Of a stretch of 57,048 bases of DNA, positions 3,744-48,270 are shown piece after piece. Numbering within the stretch: position 1 is the stretch's first letter; every line of letters starts with the position of its first letter. Position numbers and translations under genes: made by a program. Location: assembly GCA_003279635.1 (NCBI GenBank), contig QCHK01000010.1, positions 1-57,048 on the forward strand, given 5' to 3'. Source of the stretch: Prochlorococcus sp. AG-402-B05 (GTDB lineage Bacteria > Cyanobacteriota > Cyanobacteriia > PCC-6307 > Cyanobiaceae). Below the pieces are notes generated by a model that saw only the letters and a list, made by a program, of their open reading frames with translations, ran no database searches and had not been told where the DNA came from.

Positions 3744-4164
3744 TTACCTAGACCACCTGCATTGATCTGCGTATCTCTGATATATCGTTGCGTACCCTTT
3801 CCCTACAAGTCTTTTGTGAATATTCATTCTTCCTTTAGATAATTCTACCAATGTTCTGCCGTAACGATCCTTGGGTAATCCTACGAATAGAAACCTCTTG
3901 TCCAGCAACCAAACTATTGAGATGATCCCTTGCAGCTTTGGCTGGGACTGGATCAGCTCTCGATCCTCTTGATTCGGGTGTATCAATACAAGCTAGTCTT
4001 ATCTTTTCGCCTTTAATTGTGGTACACGTATCCCCGTCATAACAGCTTTTGATCGTAACTAAATTATTCTTGTTGGAGAAATAGTTAATACCAAGAATCA
4101 CAACAAGTCCACCCAGACCGATCTTCAGTAAATCAAATACACAACCAAAACAACCTTTAATCAT
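3744..4164 (-). pseudogene. Staphylococcal-nuclease-like (thermonuclease) gene, frameshifted
   Basis: ATG at 4164 opens a protein with an N-terminal hydrophobic segment (GLGGLVVILG, ~residues 17-26), an anchor or signal peptide. It is followed by a thermonuclease core, VTIKSCYDGDTCTTIKGEKI and RLACIDTPESRG. DGDT and the IDTPE/Arg motif are catalytic or calcium-site features of the family. The frame ends early at 3835, but the expected continuation (DRYGRTLVELSKG ... LVGKGYATIYQRYADQC) is present in another frame down to 3744. Removing one G at about 3870 restores ITQDRYGRTL. Either this is a recent single-base loss of function or a sequence error. The start overlaps the stop of the upstream remnant by ATGA, so the two were probably coupled. 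Confidence 0.8.
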
Positions 4165-4822: not shown

Positions 4823-4942
4823 TTACCAATGTGGATCTTCACCTTCAATATCGCCGATGTCATAGCGTGATCTTTGCAGCATGCTCTTTTTAATAGTCTC
4901 TCTTTCATAGGAAGTAAAGGTATTAGATCGATTGATATAAAT
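4823..4942 (-). pseudogene. C-terminal fragment of an unknown protein
   Basis: A minus-strand frame without a usable start codon reads NTFTSYERETIKKSMLQRSR then YDIGDIEGEDPHW and stops at 4823. It looks like coding sequence. It lies directly downstream of the broken helicase gene and is probably the tail of a further gene in the same decayed operon. Confidence 0.3.
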
Positions 4943-4945
4943 AAG

Positions 4946-4960
4946 GTTTAATAAATTCCC
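4946..4960. repeat. 15-bp direct repeat, copy 2
   Basis: Second copy of GTTTAATAAATTCCC (first at 3269-3283), at the 3' end of the decayed helicase gene. Confidence 0.5.
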
Positions 4961-6172
4961 GCCAGAGAGAGAGACTCCTCCTCAAAAGATTGTATTACAT
5001 CAGGCGAAAGAGAATATTTTCCACGTTTAGGTTTAACTAGTTGGCGTTTCGCTGTTAAAGCTCCAAGGGTATTGTCTACTGTCTTGAACTTTGCTTTGGC
5101 ATCTGAGTATGCCTTTTTCTGAATCTCGTTCCTTGTTAAAGAATGAATGCCAATCCTATGTGATTTCAAAGAATACTTTTGATTACGTTCTCGCAGCTTC
5201 CAACAATTTCTTCTTCTGGTAGCAGTTCAAGTTGATTGTCTTTGAGCGTAAATCTAACTTGTCTTCGTGGATCAACTACAGCAGCACGATCTTTGATAAG
5301 TATCGCCTTCACCCCTATTTGTTTAGGATTTGATGTTTGTTCATCGTCGTTAAAACTGGATCCAGCCTAATAACCATTGAAGGCTCTTCTGCCCAACTTT
5401 TAGCCCCTGAATGAGCCCCTTGTTCTGTCCCGTCGTGAGATAGAAATTCCAAGTGGCAGCCTTGGCTCTGACAGATTCCTTCTCGTATATATTGGAGAAG
5501 TGTTCTTACTTATTGAATGTCTAGATAGCTCCAACCACCTCTAGAAGAAACTGATTTAGCAGAGTCAATCACAATATTAGAAATCCCTTGAGTCTTTATG
5601 AATTGCTCTAGTTTTATGATTCCATTAATATCTACGGCCCAAGCATCATGGCCTTGCTCAGGATCAAATCCCCATATAAATACTTTTTGTTCAGGACCAC
5701 TCATAACCGGATCATCATCTTCTATGCCCAATTGATCCATTGAGTCTTTTAAGGCTCCAAGTCCTGAATCAGTTGCGATGAATAATGTTTTACCAGGTTC
5801 ACATGCTGTTGACCGATCAAGAATATTTTTACCTTTGGCATAGTTATAAGCCTTCCAAAGAGCATATATCATTTTACCTGAACCAGCCTTACCATAGGTA
5901 AGACATATATCGCCTTTTAGTAGCCATCCGTCCATTAAATATGAAAGTGGAGCAACTTTTTTAAAATCAACCCATTCATTTTCTGGAGTGATAGGAGTAA
6001 TTTTAGAAGCAGAAAATCTTTTAAATAAGGCAGAATTAATCTGTTCATCTTTGACTTTAAAGTTAGTCTTCAGTTCAGACTTAAATGCCATTTCAGAGTC
6101 AGTATCACCTGCTTGAATCGCAGCAATAATTTCTTCTAAGAAATCTGAATAGGATAATTCTTCAGAGGTCAT
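4948..6172 (-). pseudogene. RecA/AAA-type replicative helicase-like ATPase with winged-helix tail, multiply disrupted
   Basis: ATG at 6172 has a strong AGGAGGT site upstream. Residues ~1-60 form an acidic helical start. At ~90 lies a Walker A loop, YGKAGSGKM, where the normal Thr/Ser after Lys is Met. Walker B is SNIVIDSAKSV. The frame stops at TAA after GGWSYLDIQ (5510), but the same frame resumes beyond it: REGICQSQGCHLEFLSHDGT, then EEPSMVIRLDP. A one-base shift leads to DDEQTSNPKQIGVKAILIKD, and another joins SCENVIKSI to a winged-helix-like tail (HSLTRNEIQKKAYSDAKAKF ... KRGKYSL). So one nonsense change, two frameshifts and a Walker A change affect a gene of roughly 400 codons. This architecture is typical of plasmid/satellite primase-helicase modules. 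It surely no longer encodes a working ATPase if the sequence is right. Confidence 0.8.
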
Positions 6173-6195
6173 AATTCACCTCCTTCTTGTACCTT

Positions 6196-6938
6196 CTAAT
6201 CGGTGGTTTGATCTATGCCTCCATAATCTTTGTGCTTGCTACAGATATTTCTCTCATTTCGATTGCAGATTTCGCAATAACTTGTTCTTACCCAGTCCCC
6301 CGAAGAAGTGCTGGCAATTGAGATTGGTCGCTTCCTGTCAAATTTCTATAAGAACTCGACTGTTAGATCCCACCAATCATCAGGGGGAGGCACCAATCTC
6401 TCAGGCCCAAATCCATCGGGCCAAAGGTAAGATCCTCCGCTTGGATGCTTACCAAGAATTGCAATCTGGCGACCACCCACAAAGAAACATTCAATCTGTT
6501 CTTTATCGCCAGTCTTTTGGGAATAAGTGAACTCTCCAGTATTGAGTTGATTGATTTGTTGATTGCTTGGCTGAAAAAGTAGTTTCCTTCTCCAAGCATC
6601 ATTGGATCTTGCAACGATCCAAGTCTTTTGGAGAACCATCCCCCGACTCTTTAACCAATACCAAGCGCTTTCGCCATCAAGATCAAAACAGAGCAATGGT
6701 CCTGTGGATAATCCAGTTCTTGCTCCGATAGTTGTGCAGTTTTGATACTTGAGAAGATCATCAATGCTGTACCCTTAGATTTTGGCCATCCTTTGATAAG
6801 AGGAATTTTCCCTGAGAGTGGAATAAAGGCAAATCGTTCTACTAATGGATTTAAGCGGTGAGCAGTCTCTGGATCTAAATTGGGGTTGGATTCAGCAGGC
6901 CCGCCATCAAAGGTGGGCTTTTTATTGAGTAAGTCCAC
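6196..6938 (-). pseudogene. Bifunctional DNA primase-polymerase (prim-pol) gene, frameshifted
   Basis: GTG at 6936-6938 overlaps the stop of the upstream RHH gene (TAGTG), so translation was probably coupled. The N-terminal part reads FAFIPLSGKIPLIKGWPKSK, the usual start of archaeo-eukaryotic prim-pol domains. After a one-base shift near 6765 the frame continues KYQNCTTIGARTGLSTGPLL then CFDLDGESAWYWL, where the DLDG Asp residues match the metal-binding motif. TWIVARSNDAWRRKLLF follows. A second shift near 6345 leads to a Cys/His-rich tail (SYCEICNRN, ICSKHKD) ending at 6196, possibly zinc-binding. Next in line is the helicase-like ATPase. Together they resemble the replication module of small integrative elements. 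Confidence 0.75.
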
Positions 6939-7114
6939 TAGGCCTGCTCGTGACTCTTTAGTGCGTCAGCGATGATCGCCCTCATCAAATCGGCACGGGA
7001 GCAGTTATATCTGCGAGCTAAATCATCAAAAGATTCCTGCATCCCTATTTCAACTTTGCAGGCAATTACAGGATCAATTTTTCTGACCGTTGGGATTACT
7101 TTGAGTAGTGACAT
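6938..7114 (-). CDS. 58-aa ribbon-helix-helix-like DNA-binding protein
   Basis: ATG at 7114. The protein starts MSLLKVIPTVRKIDP, a short strand-like start, and continues IGMQESFDDLARRYNCSRAD and LMRAIIADALKSH. This matches the strand-helix-helix plan of CopG/Arc-type repressors (SRADLMRAII resembles the second helix). It is intact and its stop overlaps the GTG start of the prim-pol gene by one base. A copy-number or operon autorepressor role is inferred from its position at the head of the replication module. It is the only undamaged gene of the set. Confidence 0.6.
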   Translation of the reverse strand: MSLLKVIPTVRKIDPVIACKVEIGMQESFDDLARRYNCSRADLMRAIIADALKSHEQA

Positions 7115-7236
7115 TTAAGGAAGAAATATCTTCCCTCCATAGATACAGACACCTAAGAACTATTGCAAAGACTGGATTCTTAGTGAATATTGCTTAATGT
7201 GCAACCGTGAAATTAAACTCATGAGTTAAGAAAACA

Positions 7237-7413
7237 TCAATTTTGAAGAGGCTGTCCTAGTTCATCTCTCAATCTTCTAATTCGCTGCAATAGTTTTAAT
7301 CTTCTACTTCTTGCTGTAGCTGTAAGAAATATCCTCAAAGGGAAATAAATCAAAGTCATAGTGCCTGCTAACCCAGCCATGAGAATAAAAAATAAAGCCC
7401 CGGGATCGTTCAT
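7237..7413 (-). CDS. Conserved-type 58-aa single-helix membrane protein
   Basis: ATG at 7413. Residues ~5-32 form one hydrophobic segment (ALFFILMAGLAGTMTLIYFP), followed by a strongly basic stretch (TARSRRLKLLQRIRRLRDE) and a short end. Positive-inside logic places the C-terminus in the cytoplasm. It is divergent from groL. I do not recognise a named family; the composition and compact form suggest a real gene. Confidence 0.6.
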   Translation of the reverse strand: MNDPGALFFILMAGLAGTMTLIYFPLRIFLTATARSRRLKLLQRIRRLRDELGQPLQN

Positions 7414-7541: not shown

Positions 7542-9215
7542 ATGGCAAAACTTCTAAGTTTTTCAGACGAATCCCGTGGTGCTCTAGAAAAAGGAGTAAA
7601 CAATTTAGCCAACGCTCTAAAAGTCACAATTGGACCTAAAGGTAGAAATGTTGTTATTGAAAAGAAATTTGGAGCCCCAGATATAGTTAATGATGGAGTA
7701 ACTATTGCCAAGGAAATAGATCTTGAAGATCCATTTGAAAATTTAGGCGCAAAACTCATTGAACAAGTTGCATCAAAAACGAAGGAAAAAGCTGGCGATG
7801 GAACAACTACTGCAACAGTTTTAGCTCAATTTATGGTTCAAGAAGGTTTGAGAAATACAGCCGCCGGAGCCAGCCCAATCGAATTAAGAAGGGGAATGGA
7901 AAAGGCTGTAGCTCAAATAGTTGATGATCTAAAGAAAAAAAGCAAATCAGTCAGTGGTGATGCTATTAAGCAAGTTGCGACAGTAAGTGCCGGTGGAGAC
8001 GAGGAAATAGGTTCAATGATTGCAGATGCAATAGATAAGGTAAGTTTTGATGGAGTGATAACAGTTGAGGAATCCAAATCTCTAGCCACCGAGTTAGATA
8101 TCACTGAGGGAATGGCATTTGATAGAGGCTATAGCTCTCCATATTTTGTGACAGATGAAGATCGATTAATTTGCGAATATGAAAATCCATCAATCCTAAT
8201 TACTGACAAAAAGATTTCATCAATTGCCGATCTCATTCCTGTTCTAGAAACAGTTCAAAAGAACGGAACACCATTAATAATTCTTGCAGAAGAAGTAGAG
8301 GGTGAAGCATTAGCCACATTAGTAGTAAATAAAAATCGTGGTGTTTTACAGGTAGCAGCTGTTAGGGCTCCATCATTTGGCGAGAGAAGAAAAGCTGCTC
8401 TTGGAGATATTGCAGTATTAACTGGCGGCACATTAATAAGTGAAGATAAAGCAATGAGTCTTGAGAAAGTTCAAATTTCTGACCTAGGTCAAGCAAGAAA
8501 AGTAACAATTACAAAAGAGAGCACAACAATTGTCGCAAATGAGAATCAAAACACCGAACTATCTAATCGCATTGCCTCAATCAAGAGAGAACTTGACGAA
8601 ACAGATTCTGAGTACGATCAAGAGAAGTTAAATGAGAGAATCGCTAAACTTGCTGGCGGTGTAGCTGTGATTAAAGTCGGAGCTCCAACTGAAACTGAAT
8701 TAAAGAACAGAAAGCTCAGAATCGAGGATGCTCTGAATGCAACTCGTGCAGCCATTGAAGAAGGTATTGTTGCAGGTGGTGGAACGACTCTTCTTGCACT
8801 AAGTGAAGGACTTGGAGATTTAGCTAAAAAATTAGAGGGTGATCAAAAAACCGGAGTTGAAATAATAAAAAGATCCTTAGCTGCTCCAACAAAACAGATA
8901 GCCATCAATGCTGGATTTAACGGAGATGTTGTTGTATCAGATATCAAGCGTTTAGGCAAAGGCTTCAATGCACAAACTGGAGAGTACGAGGATTTGCTTG
9001 AAGCAGGAATCTTAGATGCTTCAAAAGTAATACGACTTGCTCTTCAAGATGCTGTATCAATTGCCTCACTGCTCATAACTACTGAAGTTGTTATTGCTGA
9101 TAAACCTGAGCCACCAACAGCGCCAGGAGCTGAAGGTGGAGACCCAATGGGTGGTATGGGTGGTATGGGTGGTATGGGTGGTATGGGTGGTATGGGAATG
9201 CCTGGAATGATGTAA
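7542..9215 (+). CDS. groL: Chaperonin GroEL (60-kDa, HSP60)
   Basis: 557 residues, close to the usual 540-550. The ATP-binding signature [12 protein letters not shown] is near residue 84 and the family core [20 protein letters not shown] is intact. The C-terminus carries five GGM repeats and ends GMPGMM, encoded by a GGTGGTATG tandem repeat at about 9150-9195. No groES precedes it, so it is the stand-alone paralogue; cyanobacteria usually also carry a groES-groEL operon elsewhere. I see no CIRCE inverted repeat upstream, so HrcA control is not supported here. It forms the double-ring folding chamber in the cytoplasm. Confidence 0.97.
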
Positions 9216-9279
9216 GAAAATAAAAAGATCTACAATTTCAAATTAGAAAATTAGAAATTAATAAAAACTAATTTAGAAC

Positions 9280-9756
9280 TTATTTTCTTAACAACCACTT
9301 CTTGAGATAACTATATTTAGGTTTAGGAGGCAAAGGAATCAAAGCTTTTATTTCAGGTTGGCTTTTACTGTCTTTGGATATATTTATAGCTTTGTCTTCA
9401 TAATTTTTTTTCTCAGCTATTGAATAAGATGTAATTATAAAAGTTTTATCATTCTCATCCTTAACTGACTCATCAAGCTCTTTGTTTATTATTTCTTTTG
9501 ACTGATTAACATCGTCTTTAATAGAAGTTTCTTTTTCGCCCTCGAAAGAATTTTCTTTTGATTGATCAATTTTTTGATTATCTACATTATTTGGGTTTTG
9601 ATCTAACTGTTTTAAATCTAGGCTTTGCAGTTCTTCCAAACTATCTACTCCAAAACGATGAGCCCATTGAGATTTCAGGAGAAAATATAAATCATTATCA
9701 TTAGCCTTTAGAGCTTCTATAATTTGTTTTTGTAGCTGATACTTTCTAGACTCCAA
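9280..9756 (-). CDS. Hypothetical protein, acidic/Ser-Lys-rich middle
   Basis: 158 residues from ATG at 9756. The N-terminal ~50 residues look folded (YQLQKQIIEALKANDNDLYF, LKSQWAHRFGV). A low-complexity Asn/Asp/Lys/Ser region follows, with a short basic Pro-rich end (PLPPKPKYSYLKKWLLRK). There is no signal peptide or membrane segment. It lies in the same orientation as the ABC exporter pair and just upstream of neither. Function unknown. Confidence 0.6.
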   Translation of the reverse strand: MESRKYQLQKQIIEALKANDNDLYFLLKSQWAHRFGVDSLEELQSLDLKQLDQNPNNVDNQKIDQSKENSFEGEKETSIKDDVNQSKEIINKELDESVKDENDKTFIITSYSIAEKKNYEDKAINISKDSKSQPEIKALIPLPPKPKYSYLKKWLLRK

Positions 9757-9785
9757 GGTTCTTTTAAATCGCTAAATTAAGATTA

Positions 9786-10640
9786 TCAAGCAAGTTTGCG
9801 ATTTAAAAGAGGTCTGATAAGAAAAAATAATCCAACTGTAAGAATCAATAGAATTGCTAAGCAAGAATATCCATTCACTTCTCCATAAGGAGCATTAATT
9901 AAAACTGCTCTCAGATCGACAGAACTTTGGTAAGCCATTCGAATAGGTTCAATCGCAAATGTTAATGGATTAATTGATGCTATCCATCCAAGCCATTCAG
10001 GCATAAAAGATATGGGGGCTAGGGCTGTGCTAGCAAAAAGGACAGGCAGATTAGCTATGAAGATAATTGCAATTAATTCTATATGTCCTGGTAAAACAAA
10101 GGCCAACCCAAGACTCAGGCCAGTTATTGCAAATACCAATAACAATAATGTTATTGCTATGAGAAGAAAACCTCCCAGACTTGGCCATCCATAACCCAAT
10201 AGAGCAGAAGTTGCCATTATTGCAAAACTCTGCAAAAGGCTAATAGAAGTTATATAGATTACTGAAGAAATTACTATTGAACTTCTACTACTCAATGGTG
10301 CAACTAATAGTCGATTTAGAAAACCAAATTCTCTATCAAACATCAAAGGGAGGCCAGCATTAAGAGCACCACTAAAAGCAGTAAAGACTATTAATCCTGC
10401 ACCAAGGAATTCTCCATAGCTACTGCTCCCTGGCAAAAAATCAATAGGAGCTTTAGAGAATAACGCTGCAAAAAGTAAAAGCCATATCAAAGGCTGGAGA
10501 ATCCCTGCAAATAAAGTTGAGGGTCGTCGAATTAATTGAATGAAAAGCCTCCAAGTTAGAGCAGAAATCTCCTGAGACATTTCATTCAAATCATTTCTAG
10601 ATTGCTTTTCCTGCTGAAGTGATGGGTTAGTAGTAATCAT
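9786..10640 (-). CDS. ABC-2 type exporter permease
   Basis: 284 residues with about six membrane helices in the ABC-2 (DrrB/NodJ-like) arrangement. PSTLFAGILQPLIWLLLF opens the first helix, FDREFGFLNRLLVAPLS is the typical cytosolic coupling segment, and NPLTFAIEPIRMAY sits before the last helix. It follows the ATPase gene by 31 bp on the same strand, so the two should form one exporter in the inner membrane. Substrate is unknown; the closest named families move drugs, lipids or polysaccharides. Confidence 0.88.
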   Translation of the reverse strand: MITTNPSLQQEKQSRNDLNEMSQEISALTWRLFIQLIRRPSTLFAGILQPLIWLLLFAALFSKAPIDFLPGSSSYGEFLGAGLIVFTAFSGALNAGLPLMFDREFGFLNRLLVAPLSSRSSIVISSVIYITSISLLQSFAIMATSALLGYGWPSLGGFLLIAITLLLLVFAITGLSLGLAFVLPGHIELIAIIFIANLPVLFASTALAPISFMPEWLGWIASINPLTFAIEPIRMAYQSSVDLRAVLINAPYGEVNGYSCLAILLILTVGLFFLIRPLLNRKLA

Positions 10641-10671
10641 GTGTTTAATAATTCAGGAGTAATAAAGTTAA

Positions 10672-11685
10672 TTAACGCATCGATTTCTTATTCTCAAGCT
10701 TAAAATCTCTTTTACCCGCAAGTTCTAATTCAGCGTCCATAAGCGTTTTTCCTGTCGCCTGCAGATAAACATCATCTAAACTTGGCCTACTGTGAGAAAG
10801 AGCAAAGACTTCAAAATTTTCTTTTGAAAGATGAGCCGACAAATTAGATATAACATCATTACTTTGCACTAAAAAGTTTAGCGAATATCCTTGCGTTTGA
10901 TTCACCACTACATTTGACACTCCATTTATATTTTTAATTAATTTCTTTACAGATTCAGCTTCTACTTCATCACTGAACTCTCGCACCCTAAGTGTCACTC
11001 TATCTCCACCAAGTTCTTTTTTTAAATCATCTGGTTTTCCACTAGCAATGACTTTTCCTTTATCAATAATAGCTATCTCATCCGCCAATTCATCTACTTC
11101 CTCAAGATAATGACTACTTAAAAGAATTGTAGTTTCTTTATTTCTTAGTTCCTTCAATAATCCCCAAATAACTGATCGACTTTCTATGTCCAACCCAACA
11201 GTAGGTTCATCAAGAATCAATAATTCTGGTTCATGCAACAATCCTGATGAGAGGTCAAGTCTTCTTTTCATACCTCCCGAAAAAGAACCACATCGTCTAT
11301 CAATCCATTCATGCATATCCAGTCTATCTATCAATTCTTCAATTCTGTTTTTCTTATATTTTTTATCAAGATGATAAAGATCTCCTTGAAGCTGTAACAA
11401 CTCTCTACCTGTAAGTATTTTATCGATTGCGACATCTTGAGCTACATAACCCAATCTTCGTCTGGTTTCTTTTTCCTCAAACAAGACATTATGTCCCCCG
11501 ACCTCAACATAACCAGAATCAGGCGAAAGGAGAGTACAGATAATTCTAAGTGCAGTGCTTTTACCTGCCCCGTTTGGGCCCAATAATCCATACAAAGAAC
11601 CTTTAGGAACTTCGAGGTTAAGTCCATTTAGAGCCATAACAGAGCCATAAGACTTAAATAGATCTCTAAGTTTGATGAAAAACAT
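10672..11685 (-). CDS. ABC transporter ATP-binding protein, DrrA-like
   Basis: 337 residues. Walker A GPNGAGKST is near residue 37, the ABC signature FSGGMKRRLDLSS, Walker B LLILDEPTVGLD and the switch His in LLSSHYLEEVDELAD. The C-terminal ~100 residues contain the DrrA-type extra domain (SHSRPSLDDVYLQATGKTL). It is immediately upstream of the ABC-2 permease and powers it. Start ATG at 11685. Confidence 0.92.
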   Translation of the reverse strand: MFFIKLRDLFKSYGSVMALNGLNLEVPKGSLYGLLGPNGAGKSTALRIICTLLSPDSGYVEVGGHNVLFEEKETRRRLGYVAQDVAIDKILTGRELLQLQGDLYHLDKKYKKNRIEELIDRLDMHEWIDRRCGSFSGGMKRRLDLSSGLLHEPELLILDEPTVGLDIESRSVIWGLLKELRNKETTILLSSHYLEEVDELADEIAIIDKGKVIASGKPDDLKKELGGDRVTLRVREFSDEVEAESVKKLIKNINGVSNVVVNQTQGYSLNFLVQSNDVISNLSAHLSKENFEVFALSHSRPSLDDVYLQATGKTLMDAELELAGKRDFKLENKKSMR

Positions 11686-46845: not shown

Positions 46846-48270
46846 ATGCCGAATATTGCAGAGAAATCAAAAGTTTTCGGAGGTAATGGCGTTGTCTTTC
46901 CTTTCACAAGAGTTCCTGATGTTTTCTTATATCATGAACTAATCCCAGGGACTAAGAAGTACAGATACAAAGTTATTGATGGAGCCAATACGTTAGAGGC
47001 TGCCATTGATAAGTACTCGATGCATATAACGCATTAAAAAGCTAGATATTAGAGCATGAGCAAGAGGTAGCGATCAGAAAAGCTCAGTATGAAATCGAAA
47101 CCAATAGTCCAAGAAGACGCGCAAGAATGATTACTGAGAATATGGTTAGGTCAAAGAAAGTCAGTATTAGAAAGTGCCTCAATAACTTCCTTGATGAAGA
47201 GCAAAAAAAGTAGATGCTGATCTATTAAAAGAAAAATCTCTACAAAATAAAGCACAAGGTTTAAAACAGCTCGAGAAGTATCTCAGCTACAAAGCACTCG
47301 AGAAAACCCACCAAATAGATAACCACACTTTTCAAGAGTACATAACTTGGAGAAAAGCAAAGAAGTCGACTAGAAGAATTGAACTGATTTACTTTAAAGA
47401 TTTTCTCATTGGCTACTGCAAACCAAGAGGATTATTAATCAACTCACTAGATGAAAAAGATTAATACCAAAGATAGTCATTAAAGAATCCGAAGTAGATG
47501 CCAAGCCGCCTCTCATAGAAGAAGGGAACTGGAATGTAGTAGTAAAGACTTTGAAGCGGATGATTAAAAACAGAGAGACAGGAAGAGGTCCCGCTAAGTA
47601 TTCAGAAAAAGGTAGAGGTGTCTACTTCAATCAGTTGTTTTATCGATGGTGTTTAATTTGTAAAAACAGTGGCTTACGTCCAAGCATTGAACTGAATAAG
47701 TTGAGATGGTGTGATGTCAAAAGGGAGAACGTAGGACGATGGAGCAAGTCCAAAGGGGAAACAGAAGATAAATGGATCGCAATTATTTATATAAAAGATA
47801 CTAAGACTGGGAAACAAAGAGCCGTACCCACTAATGGAGTGGATAGTCAACTACTTGAATGGAGGAAAGAACAAAAAGAGTACTTAAGTCGGTACTATCC
47901 AGAGCAAAAGATTAAAGATACAGATTTAATCTTTTGCAACCCAGCTAATGAGATGAAGTAATTTCCATACTCAATGTTCAATACAATATGGATAAGGATG
48001 ATCAAACTATGTGGAGACGAATTGAAACCCTATGTCTTCAGCGATAGGAACTACATCCCATACCGCCTTCGAAGCACTTTCATTTGCAATTTGATTTTGC
48101 AAGGAAAGGATATTTATAGCTTCGCTAAGCTTGCGGGTCATAGCATTGCATTCTGTGAAAGATTTTATGCAAAGCTAGATATGGATAGGAAATCGAAGGA
48201 GCTAACAGAAATTGAATATGGAATAAAAGTACGAAGAAAGACTTTTATAGGTCGCTATCTAGAGGATTAA
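46846..48270 (+). pseudogene. Tyrosine recombinase (phage-type integrase), broken into several pieces
   Basis: From ATG at 46846 an N-terminal arm (FPFTRVPDVFLYHELIPGTK, KYRYKVIDGANTLEAA) stops at 47037. Coding then continues in other frames: EHEQEVAIRKAQYEIETNSP from 47052 to a TAG at 47211-47216; then one base apart, VDADLLKEKSLQNKAQGLKQ up to 47463, where loss of one T breaks LDEKDLIPKI. From ~47470 to 48270 the frame is continuous but for a TAA after CNPANEMK (47959). Catalytic Arg in NSGLRPSIELNKLRW, box-II-like YRLRSTF, LAGHS and the nucleophile Tyr in RFYAKLDM are all readable. About 470 codons in total. The 47211 break is at a run of seven A. It was the integrase of an element inserted next to rpsD. 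Confidence 0.85.

Follow-up and report, generated by a model that had tools for sequence, protein, structure and literature searches.

A decayed replication module beside groEL in Prochlorococcus, probably one end of an element that integrates site-specifically at the fabG 3' end

The decayed gene set on the minus strand of the window, by which we mean the whole stretch of 57,048 nucleotides analysed here, is best read as the RHH/replication end of a site-specific integrative element inserted in the last bases of fabG, between fabG and a small groEL-linked host core gene (core58), and we put the probability of this reading at about 0.87. The window is contig C10 of a 1.76-Mb, 62-contig Prochlorococcus genome, and the set lies between core58, with groEL beyond it, and the cargo of an island. 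An earlier note on this DNA had proposed a decayed replication module of an integrative element, a proposal now supported by intact relatives at the same locus and by the ends of the element.

Read from the host side inwards, groEL (7542-9215) and core58 (58 aa, minus strand, 7237-7413, flanking the insertion site and present in 31 of the 41 genus genomes) are followed by the element/host junction at 7216-7229, where a cross-genome comparison of junctions, with core58 on the host side, places a 12-bp palindrome (7216-7227) and a 9-bp core (7221-7229) in common with the fabG 3' end. At the element end stands an open RHH-like gene of 58 aa (minus strand, 6938-7114), whose stop overlaps the start of a prim-pol pseudogene (minus strand, 6213-6938) in the motif TAGTG, an overlap also present in the intact relative of genome G010. 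There follow the pseudogene of a RecA/AAA_25 ATPase with a winged-helix-like tail (minus strand, 4855-6172), a thermonuclease (SNase) gene split over two frames (minus strand, 3744-4164) and, as island cargo, a lectin-C/Ig-like/FG-GAP protein cut by the contig end (minus strand, 2-2698). The order and strand of the RHH-like, prim-pol and ATPase genes, together with their TAGTG overlap, are as the earlier note had read them; the span of 4948-7114 does hold the module, but the feature is larger, with the ATPase remnant reaching to about 4856 and the element end lying at the junction given above. No Rfam family was found in the window at gathering scores. Further along the window, an open frame on the plus strand (47551-47961) gives a sub-threshold tyrosine-recombinase match (Phage_integrase, E 0.0027).

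The insertion site and the position of the large serine recombinase (LSR) were compared across all 31 core58 loci, in stretches of at most 15 kb (less than 3 kb for G010 and G029). Core58 and the convergent fabG are 5-8 bp apart in 17 of the 31 genomes and 321-4543 bp apart in eight, and fabG is absent from the fetched stretch in six (the window's genome, G007, G009, G010, G027 and G029), so that the close spacing is missing in 14 genomes (8 + 6), the window's genome included. Two of these, G027 (AG-402-G19) and G010 (AG-424-E20), are Prochlorococcus single cells with the same insertion site as the window. The 9-bp core is the 3' end of fabG including its stop codon. It occurs as TTAACTCAT/TCAACTCAT at the core58 junction in six of the 14 islands, and at both ends in G001, G003 and G007. 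Read from the core58 side, the end is TTAACTCAT followed by GAGTT; read from the fabG side, it is ATGAGTTAA, continued by CC in G001, G003, G010, G026 and G027. The empty site and both island ends share this att core, with the qualification that at the core58 junction it is missing or degenerate in eight of the 14 islands, which carry no clean copy there. A tandem junction in G027, in which a single core has an LSR end on one side and an RHH end on the other, forms an almost perfect palindrome centred on AT, and such a centre would allow insertion in both orientations.

Both orientations are in fact seen. The RHH end at core58, or the LSR or LSR-like end at fabG, marks the forward orientation in the window's genome, G001, G003, G010, G026 and G027. 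The arrangement is reversed in G007, with the LSR at core58, in G018, with an LSR piece and an LSR-like end at core58 and an RHH-like end at fabG, and in G011, where an RHH-like gene (40-44% identical) lies about 100 bp from fabG, with an RHH-like end there. These ends were scored for each reference end against a background of 500 random stretches; since the backgrounds for RHH_G010 and RHH_G027t are contaminated by true ends, the RHH-like fabG end of G018 (score 41) was judged by the 99th percentile (22). The background maximum was not exceeded for any reference end at the core58 ends of G003, G001 and G026 or at the fabG end of G007.

An LSR, intact or decayed, was found in six of the 14 islands (G003, G007, G010, G018, G026 and G027). 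In G027 it is open over 627 aa on contig C16, starting 62 bp from the fabG stop, and contig C62 of G010 reads fabG, core, then the first ~298 aa of an LSR up to the contig end; on both contigs the gene lies 60-70 bp past the core. The 627-aa protein carries the Resolvase (PF00239, E 5.2e-13) and Recombinase (PF07508, E 1.4e-8) domains and matches a PHROG integrase family (E 6.7e-41). Decayed LSRs or pieces of them lie at the ends in G003, G026, G027 (a second copy), G007 and G018, those of G003 and G018 being short (23-47 aa); on the single contig of G003, an ATPase fragment and LSR pieces stand between two copies of the core. No single contig was found on which one element holds an intact LSR together with an intact replication operon; in G010 and G027 the two sit on separate contigs. 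Because the LSRs of G010 and G027 are 98.2% identical in nucleotides over their common 890 bp, against 91.2% for fabG and 93.5% for ispD, the LSR element appears to have moved recently. LSR matches, most of them distant, occur in 29 of 400 family genomes. At L148 (contig C10 of G307, 8099-11519), another LSR lies between near-identical copies of a glyoxalase-looking gene (129 and 118 aa, by eye), as if this were its target.

The fabG islands might instead have spread by homologous recombination through the flanking core genes, a view that we consider unlikely. Five of the 14 islands (G009, G016, G023, G029 and G036) show none of the sought genes or clean cores, G029 offering less than 3 kb and G023 an LSR-like end that is no more than marginal (score 26, background maximum 24), and some of these may have been swapped in just such a way. 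Exchange through flanking genes is opposed, however, by the precise ends at the fabG 3' end with the LSR beside them, and by the occurrence of both orientations as well as a tandem junction, all of which argue for site-specific integration.

In the window's own genome, fabG lies on contig C2, and the RHH end of the element on C10. On C2, the island end next to fabG and the LSR-side end on contig C26 of this genome share 85.7% identity over 126 bp, the local score being 139 where 500 random stretches reached 27 at most. Contig C26 carries a decayed LSR, and an SNase gene about 3 kb away from it is open over 139 aa and 93.8% identical to the split one of the window. The first 27 kb of C2 gave no match to the LSR, and the window's own island yielded no recombinase gene, only the LSR-type end sequence. 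Up to fabG, C2 encodes a 4157-aa protein with Ig-like domains (L122, 5116-17589), downstream of which lie the genes of an ABC exporter and an HlyD protein. Split over C10 and C2, the island would measure about 31 kb or more. At 255-2290 on C26 (L124), a second att-like core followed by the decayed LSR lies away from fabG, possibly at another insertion site.

The open RHH-like gene amid dead partners had suggested to the earlier note that it was kept as a domesticated regulator of the host, which is quite unlikely in the light of the substitution rates. Its dN/dS between the window and G027 is 0.31 (8 synonymous and 10 nonsynonymous changes), a pairwise value over a history that was possibly mostly functional, and it lies below neutrality (binomial P 0.026). 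The dead prim-pol of the same pair, however, gives 0.30 (44 synonymous and 58 nonsynonymous changes, with the same reservation), so that the gene is no better retained than its dead neighbour and domestication finds no support; the other RHH pair, G010 against the second element of G027, reaches 0.07 and the host gene core58 0.01. Moreover, at the module's own lesion rate a 174-bp gene would escape lesions with a chance of 0.56. The two RHH pairs do not differ significantly in dN/dS (Fisher P 0.14), and relaxed selection on the RHH-like gene is not proven either. The assignment to the RHH class is itself cautious: the RHH_1 profile matched the 58-aa protein at E 0.05, below the cut-off, the PHROG profiles gave no match to it, and a search of solved-structure sequences with an RHH profile returned weak unrelated matches only. 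Its structural model is of low confidence (mean pLDDT 68), with PDB matches all at E 0.88 or worse, which we take to be mostly known RHH proteins.

The founding tycheposon paper reportedly gives a tyrosine recombinase as a tycheposon feature. That the module is the relic of such an element, with a tyrosine recombinase and a tRNA site, displaced to the fabG locus, is very unlikely, and the earlier note's comparison with tycheposons finds no support for this copy. No tRNA was found in the window or in L064, L076, L082, L086, L124, L125 and L126. In the parts of PMC10872708 consulted, a tyrosine recombinase is the hallmark of tycheposons; the recombinase class of the present element, as judged by its relatives (LSR in six of the 14 same-site islands) and by its own LSR-type end, is a different one. 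As the islands end in the fabG 3'-end core with the LSR adjoining, in common with the window's island end, we read the module as the decayed RHH/replication end of an LSR element and not as a tycheposon. What speaks for a tycheposon origin is that related replication genes adjoin tRNAs and tyrosine-type recombinases in L169 and L170 of this genome and in L103 of another genus, with profile support for the recombinase in L169 only (PHROG integrase, E 1.8e-6). The name tyrosine recombinase otherwise rests on a sub-threshold Pfam match for L097 and on resemblance for L096, L099 and L103, none of which has a Pfam match, and for L170. Several of the tRNA-type copies, by contrast, have a short HTH-looking gene before the prim-pol and no RHH that we could see, although profile support is weak here.

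Related prim-pol genes near tRNAs and tyrosine-type recombinases do exist, but they are other copies, three further prim-pol matches lying on C1 and C22 of the window's genome. On C1, a prim-pol and a VapE gene (E 1.6e-54) lie about 3 kb from a PHROG-integrase protein adjoining tRNA-Ala; on C22, one prim-pol stands behind a protein similar to that of C1 and adjoining tRNA-Arg. The partner helicase in G010 is likewise VapE (E 4e-60), not AAA_25, the name being profile-confirmed on C1 and in G010 and not on C22. Therefore, related replication genes occur with two integration systems. Among the 20 family loci fetched, five of which had their gene maps read, 11 have a tRNA within the stretch.

The decay of the replication genes can be followed lesion by lesion against intact relatives. 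The prim-pol remnant, 82-91% identical to the intact 300-aa protein of G010, has a 1-nt deletion at ~6771 and a nonsense codon at 6346-6348, and its last ~62 of 300 residues are lost at ~6213-6225; of the two or more frameshifts first supposed, one thus stands and the second is the nonsense codon. The Prim-Pol profile (PF09250) finds no match in the window's pieces, but it does match the intact relative (E 8.2e-6, 26.8 bits against a curated cut-off of 22.8). G027 has an RHH gene and a broken prim-pol copy in the same place, and since its lesions differ from those of the window, decay was at least partly independent. The window's prim-pol was not inherited in common with that of G010: between the two, groEL and fabG are 96.9% identical and the prim-pol only 86%. 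On contig C18 of G027 (L003, 1827-2252), a 141-aa gene with no Pfam match replaces the prim-pol between the RHH gene and an intact ATPase; the match of this 141-aa product to the window is confined to its last 16 residues.

The ATPase has fared no better. The nonsense codon and two frameshifts first reported were confirmed, at 5510-5512, ~5351 and ~5167 (the latter two 1-nt deletions), and to these are added a 109-nt deletion at ~4964 and a missense change in Walker A, where a Thr invariant in 13 of 13 relatives has become Met. AAA_25 was matched, as anticipated, by the window's piece (E 1.4e-8) and by the intact relative (E 7.9e-13). Aligned with the intact 480-aa protein of G027, the remnant reaches 81-93% identity in three stretches and 65% in the last. 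The AlphaFold model of the 480-aa protein (mean pLDDT 70.8, the last 77 residues below 50) is similar to RecA and KaiC (E as low as 1e-10), and the helices after its RecA-like part are read as the winged-helix-like tail. Of 400 family genomes, 46 have a match to this protein; neither the ATPase profile nor the LSR found anything among solved-structure sequences. That the module is alive and its lesions are assembly errors, as calling them on assembled sequence alone might allow, is hardly credible given the seven disabling lesions (two of them nonsense codons and one the 109-nt deletion), the Walker A change and a G027 prim-pol copy broken at the same locus by different lesions.

The sequences themselves show the order of the genes, their lesions, the insertion site, the end sequences, the place of the LSR and the intact relatives; the functions in recombination, repression and replication that we infer for the element would fit together as follows. 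In relatives the LSR lies at the opposite end from the RHH operon, and once the element is excised as a circle, the LSR and the RHH - prim-pol - helicase operon would diverge from each other on either side of attP. The LSR would act on the fabG 3' end and the nearly palindromic attP, in a recombination that preserves the fabG stop codon; the RHH protein would repress the replication operon; prim-pol and a helicase of the AAA_25 or VapE type would copy the excised circle; and cargo would ride along. In the window's genome, prim-pol and helicase are dead and the LSR gene is gone from the fabG side, which leaves the two ends, the RHH gene and cargo.

Such an element resembles tycheposons in being a cargo-carrying integrative element of Prochlorococcus, with related prim-pol/helicase genes near tRNA genes of the same genome, but it combines an LSR, the fabG 3' end and an RHH-like operon head, whereas tycheposons combine a tyrosine recombinase with tRNA genes. 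Large serine recombinases of integrative elements and prophages include the phiC31/Bxb1-type integrases, with which it shares the Resolvase and Recombinase domains, the PHROG integrase family and an att site at a gene 3' end; unlike these, the fabG elements have a near-palindromic attP, both insertion orientations and an operon of prim-pol plus AAA_25 or VapE, and inspection by eye of the parts read showed no capsid gene. PICI-type phage satellites offer a further comparison through their prim-pol and VapE-type helicase genes, and a related copy in the family (L099) has a phage-capsid gene nearby; in the fabG islands, by contrast, neither capsid nor terminase gene was noticed in the same reading. 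The window's ATPase piece found no match in a phage collection, and in a scan of viral contigs, sensitive to close relatives only, neither the LSR nor the prim-pol nor the 480-aa ATPase found any.

The intact LSR of G027 is followed by three small open frames and then by an iron-uptake cluster, made up of ExbD- and ExbB-like genes, those of a TonB-dependent receptor and a substrate-binding protein, and ABC transporter genes. Further along C16, an RmuC-like gene has no match in the other nine of ten genomes searched, which marks that contig end as accessory. The receptor occurs in eight of the 41 genus genomes: G027, G004 (99%), G005 (92%) and five at 39-43%. On the single contig of G004, whose fabG site is empty, an 8,894-bp block 96.8% identical lies elsewhere, about 1.8 kb from tRNA-Pro, with backbone genes at 89.5-92.8%. 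In G005 the block is split, its two long pieces (89.7-92.2%) being little or no closer than the backbone (fabG 90.9%, ispD 89.7%), so that only G004 suggests an exchange of cargo; the 60 kb around the G005 block yielded no tRNA. Siderophore transport clusters are reported in 31% of 84 LLI genomes (PMC9122953), and the main text of that paper, as far as consulted, makes no mention of genomic island, integrase, recombinase, tRNA or mobile.

In the literature searched, a body that leaves the founding tycheposon paper outside, we found no account of LSR elements at fabG in Prochlorococcus. Elements with a tyrosine recombinase, inserted at tRNA genes, have been linked to the genome plasticity of this phototroph, the most abundant in the ocean. 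At slightly less than even odds, and so tentatively, we suggest that Prochlorococcus has a second, non-tRNA route of island building, in which LSR elements with palindromic attP insert at fabG in either orientation, stack in tandem, have replication genes in common with tRNA-site elements and exchange cargo with tRNA islands, including a siderophore-type uptake cluster that is patchy among low-iron populations. With attP and attB predicted, the element lends itself to direct testing, and LSRs whose att sites are defined make useful genetic tools. A route of this kind, through a serine recombinase at a protein gene beside groEL, would explain the recurrent island (14 of 31 genomes), and at fabG it would name a concrete vehicle for iron-uptake genes.
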